Shown: one piece after another, positions 2,630 through 61,651 of the stretch
Layout: every line of letters begins with the position of its first letter
Position numbering within the stretch: position 1 is the first letter of the stretch
Translations under genes and position numbers: made by a program
Notes under the pieces: generated by a model
What the model was told of the DNA's origin: nothing
Databases searched by the model: none
What the model saw: only the letters and a program-made list of their open reading frames with translations
DNA from: Psychrobacter submarinus
Lineage (GTDB): Bacteria > Pseudomonadota > Gammaproteobacteria > Pseudomonadales > Moraxellaceae
DNA: 64,000 nt
Reading direction: 5' to 3'
Assembly: GCF_904846685.1 (NCBI RefSeq)
Contig: NZ_CAJHBQ010000002.1
Coordinates: forward strand, 434,001 to 498,000

Positions 2630-3519
2630 ATGAAACCTCAAATGCACGTAATGAACGCTTTGCTAGCTTCACCGACCTTTCAGACACTCCGTCAATATAG
2701 TCGCTATAGCAGTTACGCTATCGCGCTTAGCTTTTGTCTAGGTATCTCTGCTAGTAGCGCCTCGACGACTCGCAGCGCGGCAGGTCGTAACGTACAGTCG
2801 TCTTGGGAGCAACTGTACGAGCGCGGCAAAAACCAAGACGTTTATTTTCATGCTTGGGGCGGTGATCCGCAGGTAAATGCTTATATACAGTGGGCGGCAG
2901 ACGCCGTTGAAGATAAATACCTAACGGCTATCATAAAACCAATACTAACGCCGATAGCCGCCACCTTACATAAGCGCGGCATCACGGCTGACCAATTGAC
3001 GCTAGCTGGGTTTCTTATTGGCATAGTAGCGCTACCACTACTGGCTTATCAGCTATGGTTGCGATTATACTCAACCGTGTTTTTGATGGCTTAGATGGCG
3101 CTCTTGCTCGTTATGCCAACCAAAGCACAAGCGCTGGTGGCTACTTAGATATTACCCTCGACTTTTTATTTTATGCCGCTATTCCGCTTGGCTTTATCTT
3201 CGCTGATCCTAAGCAAAACGTCATTGCCGGAGCGCTATTGCTTGCTGCCTTTATCGGTACTGGCTCTAGCTTTTTGGCCTTTGCCATAGCCGCTGAGAAG
3301 TTTGAACTCGACAAGCCGCAGTTTAAATACAAGAGCTTCTATTATTTAAATGGACTCACCGAAGGTACTGAAACCATAGCTTTATTTATTGCCTTTTGTA
3401 TTTGGCCACAGCACTTTGTGCTCTTAGCCAGTATCTTTGCTGCAGCCTGTGCTATCACTATCGTGACTCGTATCTACGGCGGTTACCATACTCTCAAACG
3501 TTTAGAAGCTAAATCGTGA
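2630..3519 (+). pseudogene. CDP-alcohol phosphatidyltransferase, broken by a single-base frameshift
   Basis: Two overlapping frames together make one protein. The first (2630-3094) gives an N-terminal segment ending in a membrane helix. The second (open from about 3055 to 3519) carries the complete family signature D-x2-DG-x2-AR-x8-G-x3-D-x3-D as DGLDGALAR ... GGYLDITLD, followed by further membrane helices. The join lies near 3055-3062, where one extra G in 'tggttgcgatt' would restore LWLAIILNRVFDGLDG without a break. Family members move a phosphatidyl group from CDP-diacylglycerol to an alcohol at the inner membrane. The first ~90 residues are not typical of the family, so the true start may be internal. 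The change may be a real loss or a sequencing error. Confidence 0.85.
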
Positions 3520-53499: not shown

Positions 53500-55365
53500 C
53501 TACTCTGCAACCTCTTCCTCAACAGCTTCTAGGTTCGTCTGTTGATACTGTGCTGGCTTTACGATTCCACTGTACATGGTCTTGGCCATAGGCAAAGTGC
53601 TATAGAGCATTTTCCCAATTGCAGTACCATTGCCTTCTTCATAATACTGCATCAGTTCACGCCCGTACTTCCTGATATCGATACTATTACTAGCATTGGG
53701 GATTTGTTTATCCGCTGGCAAGTTTGGGAACGCTATAGCTGAGGAGACAGGCATATATTGCTGCAGAACATCGATTGTCAGCCCTTTATTGACTTTTTGT
53801 GAGTCTGCATATTGGCTACGCTGATGCTGCCATTGTATCTGCCCGCGTGGGCTCAAACCATATAGCGTTTGAATCATTGGCTGCTGGTTTGCAACTTTAT
53901 TATTCATCGCTTCATTATCAGAACGCGCTGCGCCTTCGAATACGTCATTGACGATACTATCTGCTTGTCGATCGGTGACGTTTTTCATCAAGGATAAAGC
54001 TTGCTGCACGAGTACTTTGCTAGTGAGCTTAGTCGCATCAGGGCGAGGAGCGCTTGGCTCATAAGCCTTGGCTTCTTTTATAAGCTCAGGATACTGATTA
54101 GTCATCCGCTCATAAAAGATACTGACGTAATCTTTATAAAACTGCTCATAGCTCTCAGCACTTTGTACGCGGCGGATGACTTGCGGCGTTTGCTGCATAG
54201 TATTTAGCTGCGGCGTAGGCAGTTTGGGCGATAGAGTCGCTAAAGTCGTCGGCGCAATATAGTCAAACTGACTCTCGGGCGCCGCTTCATAAGTGCGGTC
54301 TAAGGCTTCAAAGTGCGCCTTAATCACTGACTTACCGAAGCCTTTGGGCAAGCTACCATCATCAAGCGCTAAGCGTAGCCATTTGTTTTGCCACTGAGTG
54401 CCAAGCTTATCATCGGCAAATTCAGAGGTCAGTAGTGCAAAGTTATCAGCCCATAGATAGATATTACCGGTCTTAAAATCGACATAGATAGGCTGACTAA
54501 TAGTAGTACGATTATTACGCGCATGATACTGAGCGCTCATCAGCATCGTAAACCTGCCAGCTAGCGGCTGATAAACGCCTTGCGCATTGATGGATAAAGG
54601 CTTGAGCAAATACGCGTCAAGCAATTGCGCTTTTTTAATATCGAGTGGCGTTGATTTATCCTCATAGTTATCAAATAGCTGCTGATAATAAGGGCTTACC
54701 GCCTGTGAAGTACTTCCATTCTGTTTTTCATTAAGAGGATTGCCCTTTATCGTACTGGTTTCAAGGATAGTGGCGCCCTCTTGCCCTTCCGCTTCGATAG
54801 CTAACGGTTCACTGACTTCGACTATAGCTTCATTCTCGTCACTGTCATAGTCATCATAATAGTCATCATAGCTATCATAATAGTCATCAGCTCTCTTAGC
54901 CTGCCAAGCTTGATAAGCGTCCCTACACGCTAAATATTTGTTTTTAAGTGCGCTGCGCTGTACCTTATACTGCGGTGCGGACAGCTCTAAGTTTTGCGCT
55001 TGTGCTTGGGCAATCAAATCTGCATAGGCCTGATCATGGGTCTCTTCACAATACCTGGCGGCAGTCTCTGCGGCGACTAGTTGCATTTGGTCTACATTGG
55101 TAAACTGCTGCTCATTGCTGATCTCAATGTTGCTATGGTAACTAAACGAGCTACGGCGCTGTTTTTTTAGAGCGCTCTCTAAGCTTGTTTTTGCCGCGTT
55201 TTGACTGGCGGCAACATTAGTCACACTGCTTGGGTTGGTACTCATAGACTGGCAACCCGTTAGCGCTACACTACCGACCAACAAGGCGCTACTGACTAGC
55301 GAGCGCTTAGCCATAATGGTATTTGTAGCTACAGATAACGCTACTGGCTTGATTTGAGTTTTCAT
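53500..55365 (-). CDS. Large lipoprotein of unknown function with a Tyr/Asp-rich tract
   Basis: The 621-residue protein has a lipoprotein signal (VGSVALTGCQ, cysteine near residue 38). Then come a helical region with AARYCEETHDQAYADLI and KNKYLACRDAYQAWQAK, a low-complexity acidic tract of Tyr and Asp (residues about 160-176), and a long globular part with IYVDFKTGNIYLWADNFALL. No family was recognised. The Cys pair flanking the helical region resembles small periplasmic helical domains. It would sit on the outer or inner membrane, facing the periplasm. A second gene of the same plan lies 51 bp upstream, so the two likely form an operon. AAGGAT precedes the start. Confidence 0.8.
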   Translation of the reverse strand: MKTQIKPVALSVATNTIMAKRSLVSSALLVGSVALTGCQSMSTNPSSVTNVAASQNAAKTSLESALKKQRRSSFSYHSNIEISNEQQFTNVDQMQLVAAETAARYCEETHDQAYADLIAQAQAQNLELSAPQYKVQRSALKNKYLACRDAYQAWQAKRADDYYDSYDDYYDDYDSDENEAIVEVSEPLAIEAEGQEGATILETSTIKGNPLNEKQNGSTSQAVSPYYQQLFDNYEDKSTPLDIKKAQLLDAYLLKPLSINAQGVYQPLAGRFTMLMSAQYHARNNRTTISQPIYVDFKTGNIYLWADNFALLTSEFADDKLGTQWQNKWLRLALDDGSLPKGFGKSVIKAHFEALDRTYEAAPESQFDYIAPTTLATLSPKLPTPQLNTMQQTPQVIRRVQSAESYEQFYKDYVSIFYERMTNQYPELIKEAKAYEPSAPRPDATKLTSKVLVQQALSLMKNVTDRQADSIVNDVFEGAARSDNEAMNNKVANQQPMIQTLYGLSPRGQIQWQHQRSQYADSQKVNKGLTIDVLQQYMPVSSAIAFPNLPADKQIPNASNSIDIRKYGRELMQYYEEGNGTAIGKMLYSTLPMAKTMYSGIVKPAQYQQTNLEAVEEEVAE

Positions 55366-55416
55366 TTTTTATCCTTAAAAAGCTTAATACTAATTTTAAA
55401 TTAGTTATATCCTTTA

Positions 55417-57387
55417 TTAATCTGCGCTATTAGTAGCGTTATCCATGTCGTTGTCATCGTCAGCACTTTCATAGCCATTTTCGTATGCATCTTCATAAGC
55501 GTAGTCATAACGTGCGTAGCGAGCCTGCTCTAATCTTTGTTTTTGTTGATGTTGCTCGGCAAGCCAAGCGTTGCCATCAAGTGCGGGCTGCGAGTTTGCG
55601 CCAAATGTTTGCGTCAGTAGTGGAGTTAATGGACTACTCTCAAAGCTGCGGCGATCATAGCGTACTTGGTTCAATACAGTCGTGTTTGAGCCCATCAAGT
55701 CGCCACCGAAATTGATCCGTTGCTGCTTAGCCAGTAACTCATCTGAGCTATCAAGGTAGTAGTAATTCACTTGATTAAAGGAGATAGGGAAGATCGCTTC
55801 TACCAGCTGCAATAAGGCACCGACATCAGCGCTTTGATAGCCCTTATTGTAGAGCTGTATTTTATCTATTGCCTTTTTTAGCATAGCGTTATCTGGGTAC
55901 TGAACAGGATTAGCGTCGACATATTGTTGTAGCGACTGGCTCATATATTTGAGCATTTTGCCGATGATCTCGCCTGTTTGCTTGCTACCAAAGTTAACTT
56001 TGACTGCTCGCGCGGCGCCCACTTGTTTTGCAAATTCATCTTCTCGAATATCAACGGCGCTGAAGTGTTCGGGCGCCAACTCTGCCATGCTTGCCTGCAT
56101 AGCATTGATAGCAGCGTCATAGATGACTGCAGTTGGCACTTGAGAAGTGATAGCCTCAGGTAAACCAAAGTCCACCGTATGCGCTGTCATCTGCGTTGGC
56201 GTATCCTCAGGATTGGCTAAAGCCACTAGCGGCATGATAAGCGCTGGATCTAAGGTGACTTTACTGGTATTGAAATCTAAAGCTAACGGCAACTGCACCG
56301 ATGAGCTGATAGTAGGTGCAGCGTAATCGTAGCTGTAGACGCTCTTAAACTGGCGCTGTTTTGGTAGATATTGACTAACGCTATTAAAGGTCAAATATTT
56401 ATACTGATAAGCGTTGGTAGCTGCGACTTGCTCGGGGGTTTTATGCAGCATATCTAAAACCATACTGATAGCGCCAGGAGTGGAGGATTTGACCGGATTG
56501 GCTGCAGGGTTGGTTGGTTTAACCTTCTCGCTTTGTTTGGCCGCTTGCAGTGCTTCAAAATCTGCCAACCACTGTTTTGGATTGTTACTGGCTATACGCG
56601 CGCGCAAGCTAGTATCGCGGCTGCCATTGTTATAACCCTCTGCGGTTTCACCGTAGTAATCATAGCCGCTGCGATCATAACCGTATTCGTCATAACCATC
56701 GATATCGTAGCCATCGCTATCATACTCATAACCATCCACTTCATAAGCGACTTCAAAGTCAGCCGCTGCGCTCACTGCATCTGCAGCGGTTTCGTTATGG
56801 CTTTCATAGTCGTTATAGTTATTATAGTCATCATAGTCATAATCGCTATGATTTTCGTAATCATCATTCTCTTGCGCTTCGCGATGGCCGTAGACTTCAA
56901 GAATCGTTCTGAGTAACCCTGTCGAGCCAGCATCGATACTATCGGCATCGATAAAAGGCACGGCATTATAGTTAGCCTGTGCCACCGCGACATGCTCAGT
57001 CGCTAAATGTTGACGAATAGCACTTATTAAATGACGTTTGGCTTGGCTATCACTATTAGGGAAGCGGGTTTGATCGAAGAGCTGCTCATAACGCTCGTCG
57101 TGCGCTTGTAGGCTTTGATTAAAAGCTTCACTTTGTGCTTGCATAACCGCAGGGTCGACAACGCTAAAATCGATGAGCGCAGCGGAGCTGTGATTAGAGC
57201 TATCTAACGACTTATTAGACTGACAACCGCTCATAACCGCAGAGCTACTCGCTAATAGTAACGTATAACTGGCGCGCGATAGCCATTTGCGTTTGGTACG
57301 CTGCGGATGCGCCATCGGCATAGAAATTGGCATCAACTTTAGCATTGAAAGTGAATATGGTGATTTCTTGTGATGAATAACTGACAT
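55417..57387 (-). CDS. Second large lipoprotein with long Tyr/Asp/Gly-rich tract
   Basis: The 656-residue protein has an unusually long leader before its lipobox (AVMSGCQS, cysteine near residue 55); an internal start at MPMAHPQRTKRKW is possible. Between about residues 170 and 245 there is an acidic, tyrosine-rich repeat with DYDDYNNYNDYE and GYDIDGYDEYGYDRSGYDYYG. The C terminus returns to the theme (YDYAYEDAYENGYESADDD). The globular part contains LPLALDFNTSKVTLDPALI, similar in pattern to PIYVDFKTGNIYLWADN of the next gene, which suggests distant paralogy. Function is unknown; such tracts suggest cation binding or surface exposure, as inference only. Confidence 0.78.
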   Translation of the reverse strand: MSVIHHKKSPYSLSMLKLMPISMPMAHPQRTKRKWLSRASYTLLLASSSAVMSGCQSNKSLDSSNHSSAALIDFSVVDPAVMQAQSEAFNQSLQAHDERYEQLFDQTRFPNSDSQAKRHLISAIRQHLATEHVAVAQANYNAVPFIDADSIDAGSTGLLRTILEVYGHREAQENDDYENHSDYDYDDYNNYNDYESHNETAADAVSAAADFEVAYEVDGYEYDSDGYDIDGYDEYGYDRSGYDYYGETAEGYNNGSRDTSLRARIASNNPKQWLADFEALQAAKQSEKVKPTNPAANPVKSSTPGAISMVLDMLHKTPEQVAATNAYQYKYLTFNSVSQYLPKQRQFKSVYSYDYAAPTISSSVQLPLALDFNTSKVTLDPALIMPLVALANPEDTPTQMTAHTVDFGLPEAITSQVPTAVIYDAAINAMQASMAELAPEHFSAVDIREDEFAKQVGAARAVKVNFGSKQTGEIIGKMLKYMSQSLQQYVDANPVQYPDNAMLKKAIDKIQLYNKGYQSADVGALLQLVEAIFPISFNQVNYYYLDSSDELLAKQQRINFGGDLMGSNTTVLNQVRYDRRSFESSPLTPLLTQTFGANSQPALDGNAWLAEQHQQKQRLEQARYARYDYAYEDAYENGYESADDDNDMDNATNSAD

Positions 57388-57736: not shown

Positions 57737-60454
57737 ATGTCTATATATCAGCTAAAGACTCAATTTCAAAATCAGTTGCGGCCTATCAGTGATGCCTTGG
57801 TAAGTTTTGGCGTGAGTGCCAATCAAGTCACTGTTAGCGCTATTGTGCTTAGTGCTGGTAGCGCTTATGTTATAGCCAATATAGCGCCGCAAGCGAATAA
57901 TAACACCCTAACGAACAACCCTACTGAGCGAAATGCGCGTATCTGGCTCATATTACCTGTAGCGCTCTTTATACGTATGGCATTAAACGCCATCGATGGC
58001 ATGATGGCAAAGGAGCACCAGCAAGCCTCAAATCTAGGAGCGGTGCTCAATGAAGGTGGTGATATAGTCTCAGACTATTTATTAATAGCGAGTTTGTCCC
58101 CGCATATACCTACCACTACTGGCAACAAGCTATATTTTAGTCCTAAGGCTTTACAGCTTCCACAGGATCTGTCTTCCGCCAAACTCTCCAATCACACTCA
58201 TCTAAAGCTCATTAATAGCTTAAGTATGCTAACGGAAGTGGTGGCCATTAGTGCCAGTCTAACCACTGGTGAACGCGCCAATCATGGGCCATTGGGTAAA
58301 AGCGATCGAGCCTTTGAGTTAGGCGCTATTGGGTTTTTTATGGCCTTTGCTCAGCCTTGCGTTAATTGTATGGCTCATCGTCAGCCTCGTATTGGTTATA
58401 TAAAGCCTTTATTTTTGCTCAATCAGCTATTACTCATCAAGACCTCGCTTAATCGCCTCGCTTTTATCGCAAAGTTTTACTTCAACCACTATCATCCGCC
58501 GCCAATAGCCAAGTCTGTCGAGGCCTCTTCCACCATTCGTTCACAAGGACGCGCTAATATGCCAACCGAACCTACTCATAAAGCTGAAAAAAACTCTGTC
58601 AAAGCATCAGCCAATACCGCTAACATATCAGCTCGTATTATCACTGAGCACAGCTGCTTTAATGCTTACGATGGTACGGCGCTCTATTATCGCTATTGGT
58701 TAACCATGCCATTAGCGCAATTGGCTAATCTATCTAAGCAACAGTCCGAGCAAAAGCAAGTCATCCTCTTGCACCGAGGTCATGAGCATTCGGGACGTTT
58801 AACAGAGTTAGCAGAGCGCTTTGTCCAAGCCGGTTATCAAGTGTTTGCTTGGGATGCACGCGGTAATGGGCGCTCAGGCGGTATCAAAGACCACGCCGAT
58901 AGCGTTACAGAGCTTGAGCGCGACCTCAATGACTTTGTGACCTTAGTCACTCAGCAAACAGGTATTGGCTTAGAAGATACTGTGATCGTGGCCAGTAGTA
59001 TAGGAGCGGTATTAGCCGCGGCTTGGGTGCATGATTATGCGCCAAATATTCGCGGTATGATCCTTGGCACGCCGGCGCTCAGCATCCGTCTATATATTCC
59101 CTTTGCGATTCCGGCTCTTAAAGTCGCGCGTAAATTTGGTTTGATGTCCAGAGTATCGAGCTATGTCAAAGCGCAAGTCCTGACCCATGATAAAGACGCG
59201 CAAGCCGCTTATAATGCAGACCCACTGATTTCAGGATCAATATCAAGTGACTTGCTTATTGACACTCATGCAACCGGTCAACGTCTGCTTGATGATGCTG
59301 GCGCTATTACCGCGCCAACTTTTATACTATGCGCGGGCAAAGACTATGTGGTCGACAAGCAAGCTGAACGTCAGTTTTATGAGCAATTAAGCTCACCTAA
59401 TAAGCGCTGGCAGCTATACCCAGATAGCTTTCATGCGATATTTCATGAGACTAATAAGGCTGATATCTTCGCTGATTGTATCGACTTTGCCGATAGCTTA
59501 TTCGCGAACAGCACTGATAAAGTGGATCTAACCGGCGCTCACCTCAATAGCGCCAGTAAAGATAAAGTCGATCGCCTCGCGATTAAACCCTTTAACCCAA
59601 GCTTTGCTATGACCCGCTTTGCTATGCAAAAATTCGGCCATGTCAGCGATGCTATCGCTACCGGCCTAGAGCATGGTTTTGACTCTGGCAGCTCGCTTGA
59701 CAAAGTCTATGCCAACACGCCGAAAGGTAGCAATGCTTTTGGTAAAGCGGTCGATAAGTTTTATCTGAGCAATATCGGTTGGCAAGGGATTCGGATACGC
59801 CGTCAGCATTTGTTAGAGCTTGGGCGAAAGGCACTGGATCAGCGTATGCAAATCCTGACTATAAACAGCGAAACCGAAAATAATGAGTCAACGTTAAGTA
59901 TTCTCGATATTGCTAGTGGTAATGGTTATTACGTTTTTGATTTATTAGCAGAGTATGAGCAACTACAAGCTGAGATGCGCGATTATGACGCGCACAATGT
60001 GCAAGTGATCACAAATAAGGCAGTCAAATTAGGCTTAGATAATCGGGTCAATGCGGTGCAAAAAGACGCTTTTGATGATGCCAGCTATAAAGATAATCAA
60101 GGCAATAATTTACCAAATGTCAAAAATAGTGCCGCAAACGCCTTCGATGTAGCAATCGCTTCAGGGGTGTTTGAATTATTCTCCGACAATACCTTGGTCA
60201 GTACTGCGCTCGCAGGTATAAATGACAGCTTAGCGCCTAACGGTTATTTGCTTTATACCAATCAGCCATGGCATCCTGAGCAAGAGTTTATCAGCAAAAC
60301 CTTAAACAATCATCGCGGCAGTAGCTGGGTGATGCGCTGCCGCTCGCAAGCAGAGATGGATCAGCTTGTCACGCAGGCAGGGTTTAAAAAGATTGATATG
60401 CGCATCGATCGCTTTGGTATTTTTACCGTATCTTTGGCGATAAAAGTGGACTAG
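57737..60454 (+). CDS. Three-domain YnbA-YnbC fusion: CDP-alcohol phosphatidyltransferase, alpha/beta-hydrolase, methyltransferase
   Basis: TTG at 57731 is open, but ATG at 57737 gives MSIYQLKTQFQNQLRP, the usual start of YnbA-like transferases. Numbering here counts from TTG. Residues about 1-260 are membranous, with the transferase motif in the variant form NAIDGMMAKEH ... GAVLNEGGD: D89 and D111 are present, but the first and third Asp are Asn (N86, N107) and the usual Arg is Lys (K94). Residues about 320-605 are an alpha/beta-hydrolase (VILLHRGHEHSGR, nucleophile in VASSIGAV, histidine in FHAIFHE). Residues about 640-907 are a SAM methyltransferase (LDIASGNGYYVFDLL). In E. coli these parts are separate ynbA and ynbC genes. 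The likely role is making and remodelling a membrane lipid or head group. The next gene starts 6 bp after the stop. Confidence 0.88.
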   Translation: MSIYQLKTQFQNQLRPISDALVSFGVSANQVTVSAIVLSAGSAYVIANIAPQANNNTLTNNPTERNARIWLILPVALFIRMALNAIDGMMAKEHQQASNLGAVLNEGGDIVSDYLLIASLSPHIPTTTGNKLYFSPKALQLPQDLSSAKLSNHTHLKLINSLSMLTEVVAISASLTTGERANHGPLGKSDRAFELGAIGFFMAFAQPCVNCMAHRQPRIGYIKPLFLLNQLLLIKTSLNRLAFIAKFYFNHYHPPPIAKSVEASSTIRSQGRANMPTEPTHKAEKNSVKASANTANISARIITEHSCFNAYDGTALYYRYWLTMPLAQLANLSKQQSEQKQVILLHRGHEHSGRLTELAERFVQAGYQVFAWDARGNGRSGGIKDHADSVTELERDLNDFVTLVTQQTGIGLEDTVIVASSIGAVLAAAWVHDYAPNIRGMILGTPALSIRLYIPFAIPALKVARKFGLMSRVSSYVKAQVLTHDKDAQAAYNADPLISGSISSDLLIDTHATGQRLLDDAGAITAPTFILCAGKDYVVDKQAERQFYEQLSSPNKRWQLYPDSFHAIFHETNKADIFADCIDFADSLFANSTDKVDLTGAHLNSASKDKVDRLAIKPFNPSFAMTRFAMQKFGHVSDAIATGLEHGFDSGSSLDKVYANTPKGSNAFGKAVDKFYLSNIGWQGIRIRRQHLLELGRKALDQRMQILTINSETENNESTLSILDIASGNGYYVFDLLAEYEQLQAEMRDYDAHNVQVITNKAVKLGLDNRVNAVQKDAFDDASYKDNQGNNLPNVKNSAANAFDVAIASGVFELFSDNTLVSTALAGINDSLAPNGYLLYTNQPWHPEQEFISKTLNNHRGSSWVMRCRSQAEMDQLVTQAGFKKIDMRIDRFGIFTVSLAIKVD

Positions 60455-60460
60455 TCTCCA

Positions 60461-61651
60461 ATGAATAACGATAGCTTACTTGAGTCCAAACCTTATCAAC
60501 GCGTGCAGCTATTCTCGGGTGGTGGCTACCGTTTTGGCTACTATTTAGGCAGTTACGCCGCTTTGTGTGAGTACGGCCTAAAGCCTGATTTGATACTAGC
60601 CACTTGCGGCGGGAGTCTAGCCAGCCTTTTAGTCAATATCGCCCCAGACCCAGAAGATCTAAAACTATTAATTGAGAGTAAGGCGCTCTATAACGTCGTA
60701 AAATCCAGTCGGCATCGGCAAGATTTTACGCTAAGCGCAAAACAACGAAAACCTAGCTATTTTTATCAAGGGCTAAAACGCTTAGGACTATCAACAAGCG
60801 CTTCTAGGACTTTAAAATTACATCAGCGCGAAACTTATGATGAGCTGTTGGCAGAATTACATAATTTTGCCATGTTTGAGATTGCCGACGAGACGACTTG
60901 GCTAGATGAATTGATCCAGCTACAACCAAGCCTTGACATGAATGCTTTTCCTGATACTGCGATTATTGCTAGCCGTCTTGTGCCCACAGAAGACTCGCTA
61001 AAACAAATGCATCAAGCAAAAAACCTGCAGCTGGCTGCCAAATTACAAGAAGTGTTATTCACCCCAGATCATCTGCGCGCTTGTATCGATAAGCAAACTT
61101 TAGCTTGCCCTACTCATCGCTATGCTCCTATGCGTATTATGCAAGCGCTTCATCTTGTTACGGATTGGGATATTGCGCAAGCGGTCAGAGCATCGATGGC
61201 AGATATGTACTATCTGCAGCCGACGTTTATCGAAGGGCTGGGTTGGAGCTTAGGCGGCGTTATAGATTTGACACCTATCGAGTTGGCAGCTCAGTTTGGC
61301 AATAGCGTATTTGCTGAAACCAAAGCGGGCTATGATAGAGTACTAGCGGCACCTGCGATTCAGCGTATTTTTGGCTTTGATCCTAATGAAAGATTAGCTG
61401 AGGTTTTGTCCTTTAAGGCTGATAAGAATAGTACTAACGATATTGAGCAAAATAAGATTCATTGGTTGCCCTTCGCTGATAATGGCAAAGCCCTAGCCGG
61501 TCAACATGCACGTAAACGACTTAATGTACGGCAAGGACGAATTGATCTCATTCATGCTGATTACGACGACTTTGTACAGCAAATGCAAGCGCAGTGGCAC
61601 TATGGCCATCAGCGTACGCTTAAATATTTACAGGCGAATGACTTGGCTTAG
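60461..61651 (+). CDS. Patatin-like phospholipase family protein with altered active-site motifs
   Basis: The 396-residue protein has the oxyanion loop FSGGGYRFGYYLGSYAAL (GGG at 20-22) and a nucleophile elbow CGGSLAS with S52, where the usual GxSxG ends in Ala. The second catalytic motif, normally DGG, appears as S263-L-G-G (WSLGGVIDLTP). The catalytic Asp is therefore missing at its normal place, though D269 lies nearby. It could be a divergent lipase/acyltransferase or a pseudoenzyme. There is no signal peptide. It follows the three-domain gene by 6 bp without its own ribosome site, implying translational coupling and a shared lipid pathway. Confidence 0.82.
   Translation: MNNDSLLESKPYQRVQLFSGGGYRFGYYLGSYAALCEYGLKPDLILATCGGSLASLLVNIAPDPEDLKLLIESKALYNVVKSSRHRQDFTLSAKQRKPSYFYQGLKRLGLSTSASRTLKLHQRETYDELLAELHNFAMFEIADETTWLDELIQLQPSLDMNAFPDTAIIASRLVPTEDSLKQMHQAKNLQLAAKLQEVLFTPDHLRACIDKQTLACPTHRYAPMRIMQALHLVTDWDIAQAVRASMADMYYLQPTFIEGLGWSLGGVIDLTPIELAAQFGNSVFAETKAGYDRVLAAPAIQRIFGFDPNERLAEVLSFKADKNSTNDIEQNKIHWLPFADNGKALAGQHARKRLNVRQGRIDLIHADYDDFVQQMQAQWHYGHQRTLKYLQANDLA

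Follow-up and report, generated by a model that had tools for sequence, protein, structure and literature searches.

The ynb genes and the locus of Psychrobacter submarinus

In Escherichia coli K-12, the ynbABCD genes (b1408-b1411) include ynbA and ynbC as separate genes with ynbB between them, and neither a patatin gene nor a short-chain dehydrogenase/reductase (SDR) gene is present. E. coli YnbB produces CDP-diacylglycerol (CDP-DAG) in vitro and supports the formation of MPIase (membrane protein integrase) but does not sustain phospholipid synthesis in bulk (PMC6362211, PMC7018664). No function has been ascribed to YnbD; it does not replace PgpB for phosphatidylglycerol or undecaprenyl phosphate, nor the undecaprenyl pyrophosphate phosphatases (PMC7413402), which is consistent with a different substrate.

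The window analysed here is a 64,000-nucleotide stretch of Psychrobacter submarinus (contig NZ_CAJHBQ010000002.1, positions 434,001 to 498,000), in which homologues of full-length YnbA and YnbC are joined in a single gene, ynbAC, that is followed by a gene for a patatin-fold protein (Table 1). Homologues of ynbB and ynbD are found in related clusters. Ynb clusters are already known but uncharacterised. Our leading but tentative reading, in which our confidence falls a little short of even, sees in this locus the relocated core of a Ynb cluster of the Psychrobacter/Moraxella type, which may specify a second phosphatidyl head-group pathway parallel to CdsA-PgsA-Pgp.

A sequence-only reading of this DNA had described E. 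coli ynbA and ynbC as separate genes and their counterparts here as one polypeptide with three domains, trailed after 6 bp by a patatin-like gene, and each of these descriptions proved correct on the gene order of E. coli, the 905-amino acid open reading frame (ORF), the alignments and Pfam matches given below, and the position of the patatin gene.

Architecture of the YnbA-YnbC fusion

Alignment with the E. coli proteins showed that residues 1-203 of the fusion match YnbA (35% identity, E 4e-31), and residues 298-905 match YnbC (40% identity over 615 columns, E 3e-157). Pfam analysis revealed Hydrolase_4 at residues 337-573 (E 2.6e-58) and Methyltransf_20 at 583-902 (E 4.9e-86), while CDP-OH_P_transf reached only E 0.08, below the cut-off, on the YnbA part of the window's own protein. 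Since E. coli YnbC is itself a two-domain protein composed of a hydrolase and a methyltransferase, the novel junction is that of YnbA to YnbC only. Median identity was 54% for the YnbA part, 18% for the linker, 82% for the hydrolase and 69% for the methyltransferase. The linker is fast-evolving and probably flexible, and this, with its low model confidence, suggests that the domains are tethered to each other rather than forming a rigid unit. The AlphaFold model of the fusion, built on a 22-row alignment, was of too low a confidence to support statements on domain contacts (predicted local distance difference test, pLDDT, 57.7; predicted template modelling score, pTM, 0.37), and placed helices of the YnbA part at residues 28-49, 62-93, 99-123, 146-177, 189-204 and 222-251.

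Table 1. Position of the ynbAC fusion, the patatin gene and their main features in the window.
Feature	Position	Strand	Description
ynbAC fusion ORF	57737-60454	+	ATG at 57737 to stop at 60454; 905 codons without internal stop
YnbA domain, residues 1-245	57737..58471	+	Divergent CDP-alcohol phosphotransferase-like membrane domain; 35% identity to E. coli YnbA
Variant YnbA signature N84-x2-D87-G-x2-A-K-x8-G101-x3-N105-x3-D109	57986..58063	+	Canonical form D-x2-D-G-x2-A-R-x8-G-x3-D-x3-D
Second YnbA motif GPxGKSDRA, residues 184-192	58286..58312	+	G184, P185, G187, K188, S189, D190, R191 and A192 invariant in 17 diverse YnbA
Linker, residues 246-300	58472..58636	+	Median identity 18%; pLDDT <50 at residues 252-298
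Alpha/beta hydrolase domain	58637..59482	+	Hydrolase_4; monoacylglycerol lipase / lysophospholipase L2 class; triad Ser421, Asp536, His566
Class I S-adenosylmethionine (SAM) methyltransferase domain	59483..60454	+	Methyltransf_20; motif DIASGNG; stop codon included
Patatin-fold protein, 396 amino acids	60461..61651	+	Pfam Patatin PF01734, E 1.1e-12; starts 6 bp after the fusion stop
Cys49 codon	60605..60607	+	In place of the usual nucleophile Ser (GxSxG), by alignment with PlpD (GTSMG) and VipD (GASAG)
Leu264 codon	61250..61252	+	Aligned with the dyad Asp (DGG motif) of PlpD

The YnbA domain carries an unusual form of the CDP-alcohol phosphotransferase signature. Asn replaced the first and third Asp in all 96 matched YnbA ORFs, a set in which some genes were fetched twice, and the resulting pattern was N-x2-D-G-x2-A-[RK]-x8-G-x3-N-x3-D, with Lys for Arg in nine; the canonical form was thus not found in YnbA. 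A family member elsewhere in the window, used as control (L005, E 1.3e-9; 3037-3459 on the + strand, G000:C2:437037-437459), showed the canonical DGLDGALAR...G...D...D. Family membership was supported at the profile level: PF01066 was matched at E<=0.01 by 16 of 17 aligned YnbA, and a profile of YnbA relatives matched the phosphatidylinositol phosphate (PIP) synthase 6h53 (E 7.6e-10), AF2299 (4o6m, E 8.7e-8) and also CPT1. The signature spacing is shared with 6h53 and 4o6m, and PIP synthase, the closest solved relative by profile, has a canonical motif of its own, whereas all YnbA have the two Asn. Further analysis of 17 diverse YnbA revealed that N84, D87, N105, E106, D109 and D113 are invariant. 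Conservation of the variant motif and of GPxGKSDRA across divergent YnbA argues for a site that is working but altered. CDP-alcohol phosphotransferases usually have six helices, so that the C-terminus of the YnbA domain should be cytosolic, which fits the use of SAM by the attached methyltransferase.

Both YnbC domains occur in the same order along the length of the E. coli protein. Among 84 YnbC, the Ser-Asp-His triad was kept in all aligned rows that cover these positions, and the glycines of the SAM motif were kept in 84/84 and 83/84, the one exception being a change of G to A. The hydrolase domain matched the monoacylglycerol lipase 7p0y in the PDB (E 1e-18); it shares the alpha/beta fold and the triad with monoacylglycerol lipase and lysophospholipase L2, but differs from them in its A-x-S-x-G nucleophile motif and in the fused Methyltransf_20 domain. 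The methyltransferase showed a weak match to BioC (E 0.0065), and PDB searches with this domain returned nothing or weak generic matches.

Distribution of the fusion

A scan of GTDB species contigs retrieved 51 loci, all of Psychrobacter or Moraxella, a reach limited to close relatives by the peptide patterns used. A single ORF of more than 800 amino acids was present in 45 related Psychrobacter loci; the possibility of an isolated assembly artefact was rejected because the ORF is intact in so many loci. Three loci with broken frames (L053, L055 and L056) were excluded from the intact count. Their frame breaks lie inside the fusion, the patatin gene is also broken in L053 and L056, and draft-assembly errors or decay may be responsible.

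In Moraxella, ynbA and ynbC are separate and in different frames, contiguous with the patatin and SDR genes, and ynbB and ynbD are convergent. The two genes are co-directional in Moraxella and in other lineages, and were unfused in the other proteobacteria sampled, presumed Acinetobacter and presumed Pseudomonas among them. Hit tables for G765 and G377 contained long open frames, which were checked as candidate independent fusions and dismissed: in L132 there is a double stop between ynbA and ynbC, and in L122 the long ORF runs through the ynbA region in another frame. On the genomes sampled, the fusion is therefore a Psychrobacter feature according to these sequence comparisons; the survey covers a sample of species, and its genomes carry presumed genus names unless they match a named locus. 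The YnbC tree grouped Psychrobacter and Moraxella with support 100/100, far from a presumed Acinetobacter-Pseudomonas group, which indicates that the cluster type with patatin and SDR is a lineage of its own; in this tree, several sequences sit on long branches, and the deep nodes are uncertain.

The patatin-like neighbour

The patatin gene was found downstream of ynbAC, or of ynbA/ynbC, in 50/51 loci including the unfused Moraxella, mostly separated from the upstream gene by a few bases or overlapping it; its loss from this position had been named as grounds for abandoning the proposed association. In 41 surveyed Psychrobacter genomes, 18 had both fusion and patatin, one (P. coccoides) the fusion only, none the patatin only, and 22 neither (Fisher p 9e-11, shared ancestry ignored). 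The patatin also accompanied ynbA/ynbC in 4/4 Moraxella. No ortholog was detected in seven presumed Acinetobacter genomes (Moraxellaceae) with ynbA/ynbC, a search with the patatin profile across a sample of 340 genomes of the class gave no further relative at E<=1e-8, and P. coccoides lacks a patatin anywhere in its genome, though ynbAC and ynbB are kept. The conserved adjacency and strong co-occurrence make a shared membrane-lipid pathway, as suggested from sequence alone, a reasonable inference. The patatin itself is dispensable: P. coccoides and the presumed Acinetobacter do without it.

Structure prediction of the patatin gave a pLDDT of 81.8 and a pTM of 0.86, and Foldseek searches with the model found CapV (2.1e-7) and PlpD (4.5e-7) as best matches. 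The fold and the oxyanion-hole loop, with GGGxR kept, are common to this protein and to PlpD (5fqu), VipD and CapV, whereas the Ser (GxSxG) - Asp (DGG/DGA) dyad is absent from this protein and its relatives. Cys occupied the nucleophile position in 50/50 rows covering it, and residue 264 was Leu in 48, Met in two and Phe in two of 52, with Asp in none. In the model, Cys49 ends strand 44-49 and precedes helix 50-60, as expected of the nucleophile elbow; D248 is invariant and lies within the RASMADMYYLPP segment. Ser52, which is Ala in Moraxella, was considered as nucleophile and rejected, as alignment to the templates assigns that role to Cys49. Substitution of both dyad positions in all relatives makes an ordinary acyl-removing role doubtful, and the sequence-only proposal that the patatin removes or transfers acyl groups was not sustained in its ordinary sense. 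Judged from these residues, the patatin is best read as an accessory protein and probably not an ordinary phospholipase. Searches of open-licence literature for Cys-patatins and the Psychrobacter lipidome yielded nothing usable.

Genomic context and the split of the cluster

The fusion-patatin pair first described is real, but the description overlooked further members of the relatives' cluster, namely an SDR gene and ynbB, a cdsA paralogue, to which Moraxella adds ynbD. The typical Psychrobacter order is a lysO-like gene, ynbAC, patatin and SDR, then ynbB and nadB on the opposite strand. The ynbB gene lies inside the cluster region in 50/51 loci, and a YnbB ortholog was present in 19/19 surveyed fusion-bearing Psychrobacter (YnbD in 13/19). 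In P. submarinus, ynbB (G000:C3:50274-51242) is located outside the window's contig, at the ancestral position between lysO and nadB, while ynbAC and the patatin gene lie between two lipoprotein-like genes and ggt. Beside ynbB there is an SDR relic (G000:C3:49911-50238; L059 5912-6239) of two fragments in different frames, corresponding to residues 14-55 and 203-273, with the central part missing.

In P. coccoides, ynbAC is found in the same new context, and ynbB remains at the old site without a trace of SDR. Both lipoprotein-like genes also accompany ynbAC there (50 and 58% identity). From these maps, ynbAC and the patatin gene appear to have moved as one segment. P. coccoides and the split in P. 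submarinus indicate that the core which has been retained consists of ynbAC and ynbB, and that patatin and SDR are evolutionarily accessory.

The two lipoprotein-like genes of the window (53500-57387, - strand) encode proteins of 621 and 656 amino acids with a lipobox-like GCQS and Asp/Tyr-rich stretches; no Pfam family was matched, and their mutual similarity is weak (55 amino acids, E 0.001). Two Psychrobacter genomes (G778 and G752) carry an orphan ynbB ortholog but neither ynbAC nor the patatin gene.

Other proteobacterial clusters (L117-L134) have ynbA-ynbC-ynbD with ynbB nearby, but a PlsC-type acyltransferase and often a protein of ~145 amino acids replace patatin and SDR, and their YnbC belongs to another clade; ynbD there encodes a PAP2 domain with a dual-specificity phosphatase. 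In several clusters (L117 10533-10988, L129 5810-6235), the conserved ~145-amino acid, membrane-protein-like gene separates ynbD from the acyltransferase gene; in L086 (6021-6485) it lies between ynbB and ynbD. The L117 and L129 copies matched no Pfam family.

Proposed pathway and alternative explanations

The simplest way to account for the enzyme types assembled in the broader clusters, i.e., acyltransferase, CDP-DAG synthase, CDP-alcohol transferase and lipid phosphatase, is a second CDP-DAG head-group pathway. It would operate on the cytoplasmic side of the inner membrane. By analogy with E. coli, YnbB, encoded elsewhere in this genome, would make CDP-DAG, from which the YnbA domain may transfer the phosphatidyl group to an alcohol or alcohol-phosphate, as its nearest solved relatives, the PIP synthases, suggest despite the altered metal site. 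YnbD, where present, would then remove phosphate. The linker-tethered YnbC is predicted from its domain classes to tailor the product by one serine-hydrolase cleavage and one SAM methylation, a role for which the intact triad and SAM motif count, though its substrate is conjectural. The patatin-fold protein, given its residue changes, may be an accessory lipid- or acyl-binding protein, or take part in thiol-acyl transfer.

Several results weigh against this pathway. Two of the four metal-site aspartates are missing from YnbA in all members, so that catalysis is not assured. A search with Moraxella YnbD found no match in the P. submarinus genome, which, with the SDR relic, leaves the pathway incomplete compared to relatives, or served by other enzymes. 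A long branch (2.15 changes per column) separates Psychrobacter/Moraxella YnbC from the E. coli type, and function may differ accordingly. In addition, the open-licence literature searched held no demonstrated activity of YnbA or YnbC, including those of E. coli.

The uniform Asn substitutions and the faster evolution of the YnbA part relative to the hydrolase would also suit a YnbA domain without catalytic activity that serves as a membrane anchor or as a lipid-binding pseudoenzyme, with YnbC cleaving and methylating a membrane lipid such as a lysophospholipid or monoacylglycerol, as the class of its hydrolase would allow. We regard this as rather unlikely, with a real chance nonetheless, since the invariant residues and GPxGKSDRA exceed what an anchor needs, and a CDP-DAG synthase paralogue stays with ynbA. 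Regarding the patatin alone, an active acyl hydrolase or transacylase working on the YnbAC product would be compatible with the head-group pathway, and its fold, intact oxyanion loop, conserved thiol, invariant D248 and tight coupling to ynbAC speak for it; we consider it unlikely, given the loss of the dyad Asp and of the Ser in every relative, and of the whole gene in P. coccoides. A more specific version of the pathway, in which a new bacterial membrane phospholipid carries a methylated head group and arises through an Asn-substituted transferase on the CDP-DAG route with a cysteine acyltransferase as patatin partner, appears quite improbable.

The constant fusion of hydrolase and methyltransferase in all YnbC, and the weak BioC match, recall the BioC/BioH pair acting on malonyl-ACP, and the two domains could by that analogy make and remove a methyl ester on a carboxylate-bearing lipid intermediate, as a switch or protecting-group cycle. 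This is very unlikely in our view, as the hydrolase is closest to monoacylglycerol lipase and PldB in the searches run, and the methyltransferase profile has weak generic relatives only. A role of the cluster in making or tailoring an MPIase-like glycolipid through YnbB would agree with the effects of YnbB overproduction in E. coli, namely higher MPIase levels and the recovery of MPIase when CdsA is depleted (PMC6362211, PMC7018664). We hold it to be highly improbable: a ynbB knockout leaves MPIase unchanged (PMC6362211), ynbB is dispensable for phosphoglyceride-linked enterobacterial common antigen (PMC8609368), and no glycosyltransferase is present among the recognised cluster genes, in neighbourhoods that are not all annotated.

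Significance

A patatin that proved to be a cysteine acyltransferase would be of a kind not found in the literature searched. The combination of ynbAC and ynbB, as kept in P. coccoides, offers a minimal set open to expression and assay, and the two residue-level predictions, the Asn/Asn site of YnbA and Cys49 of the patatin, make the question of the function of this family directly testable.

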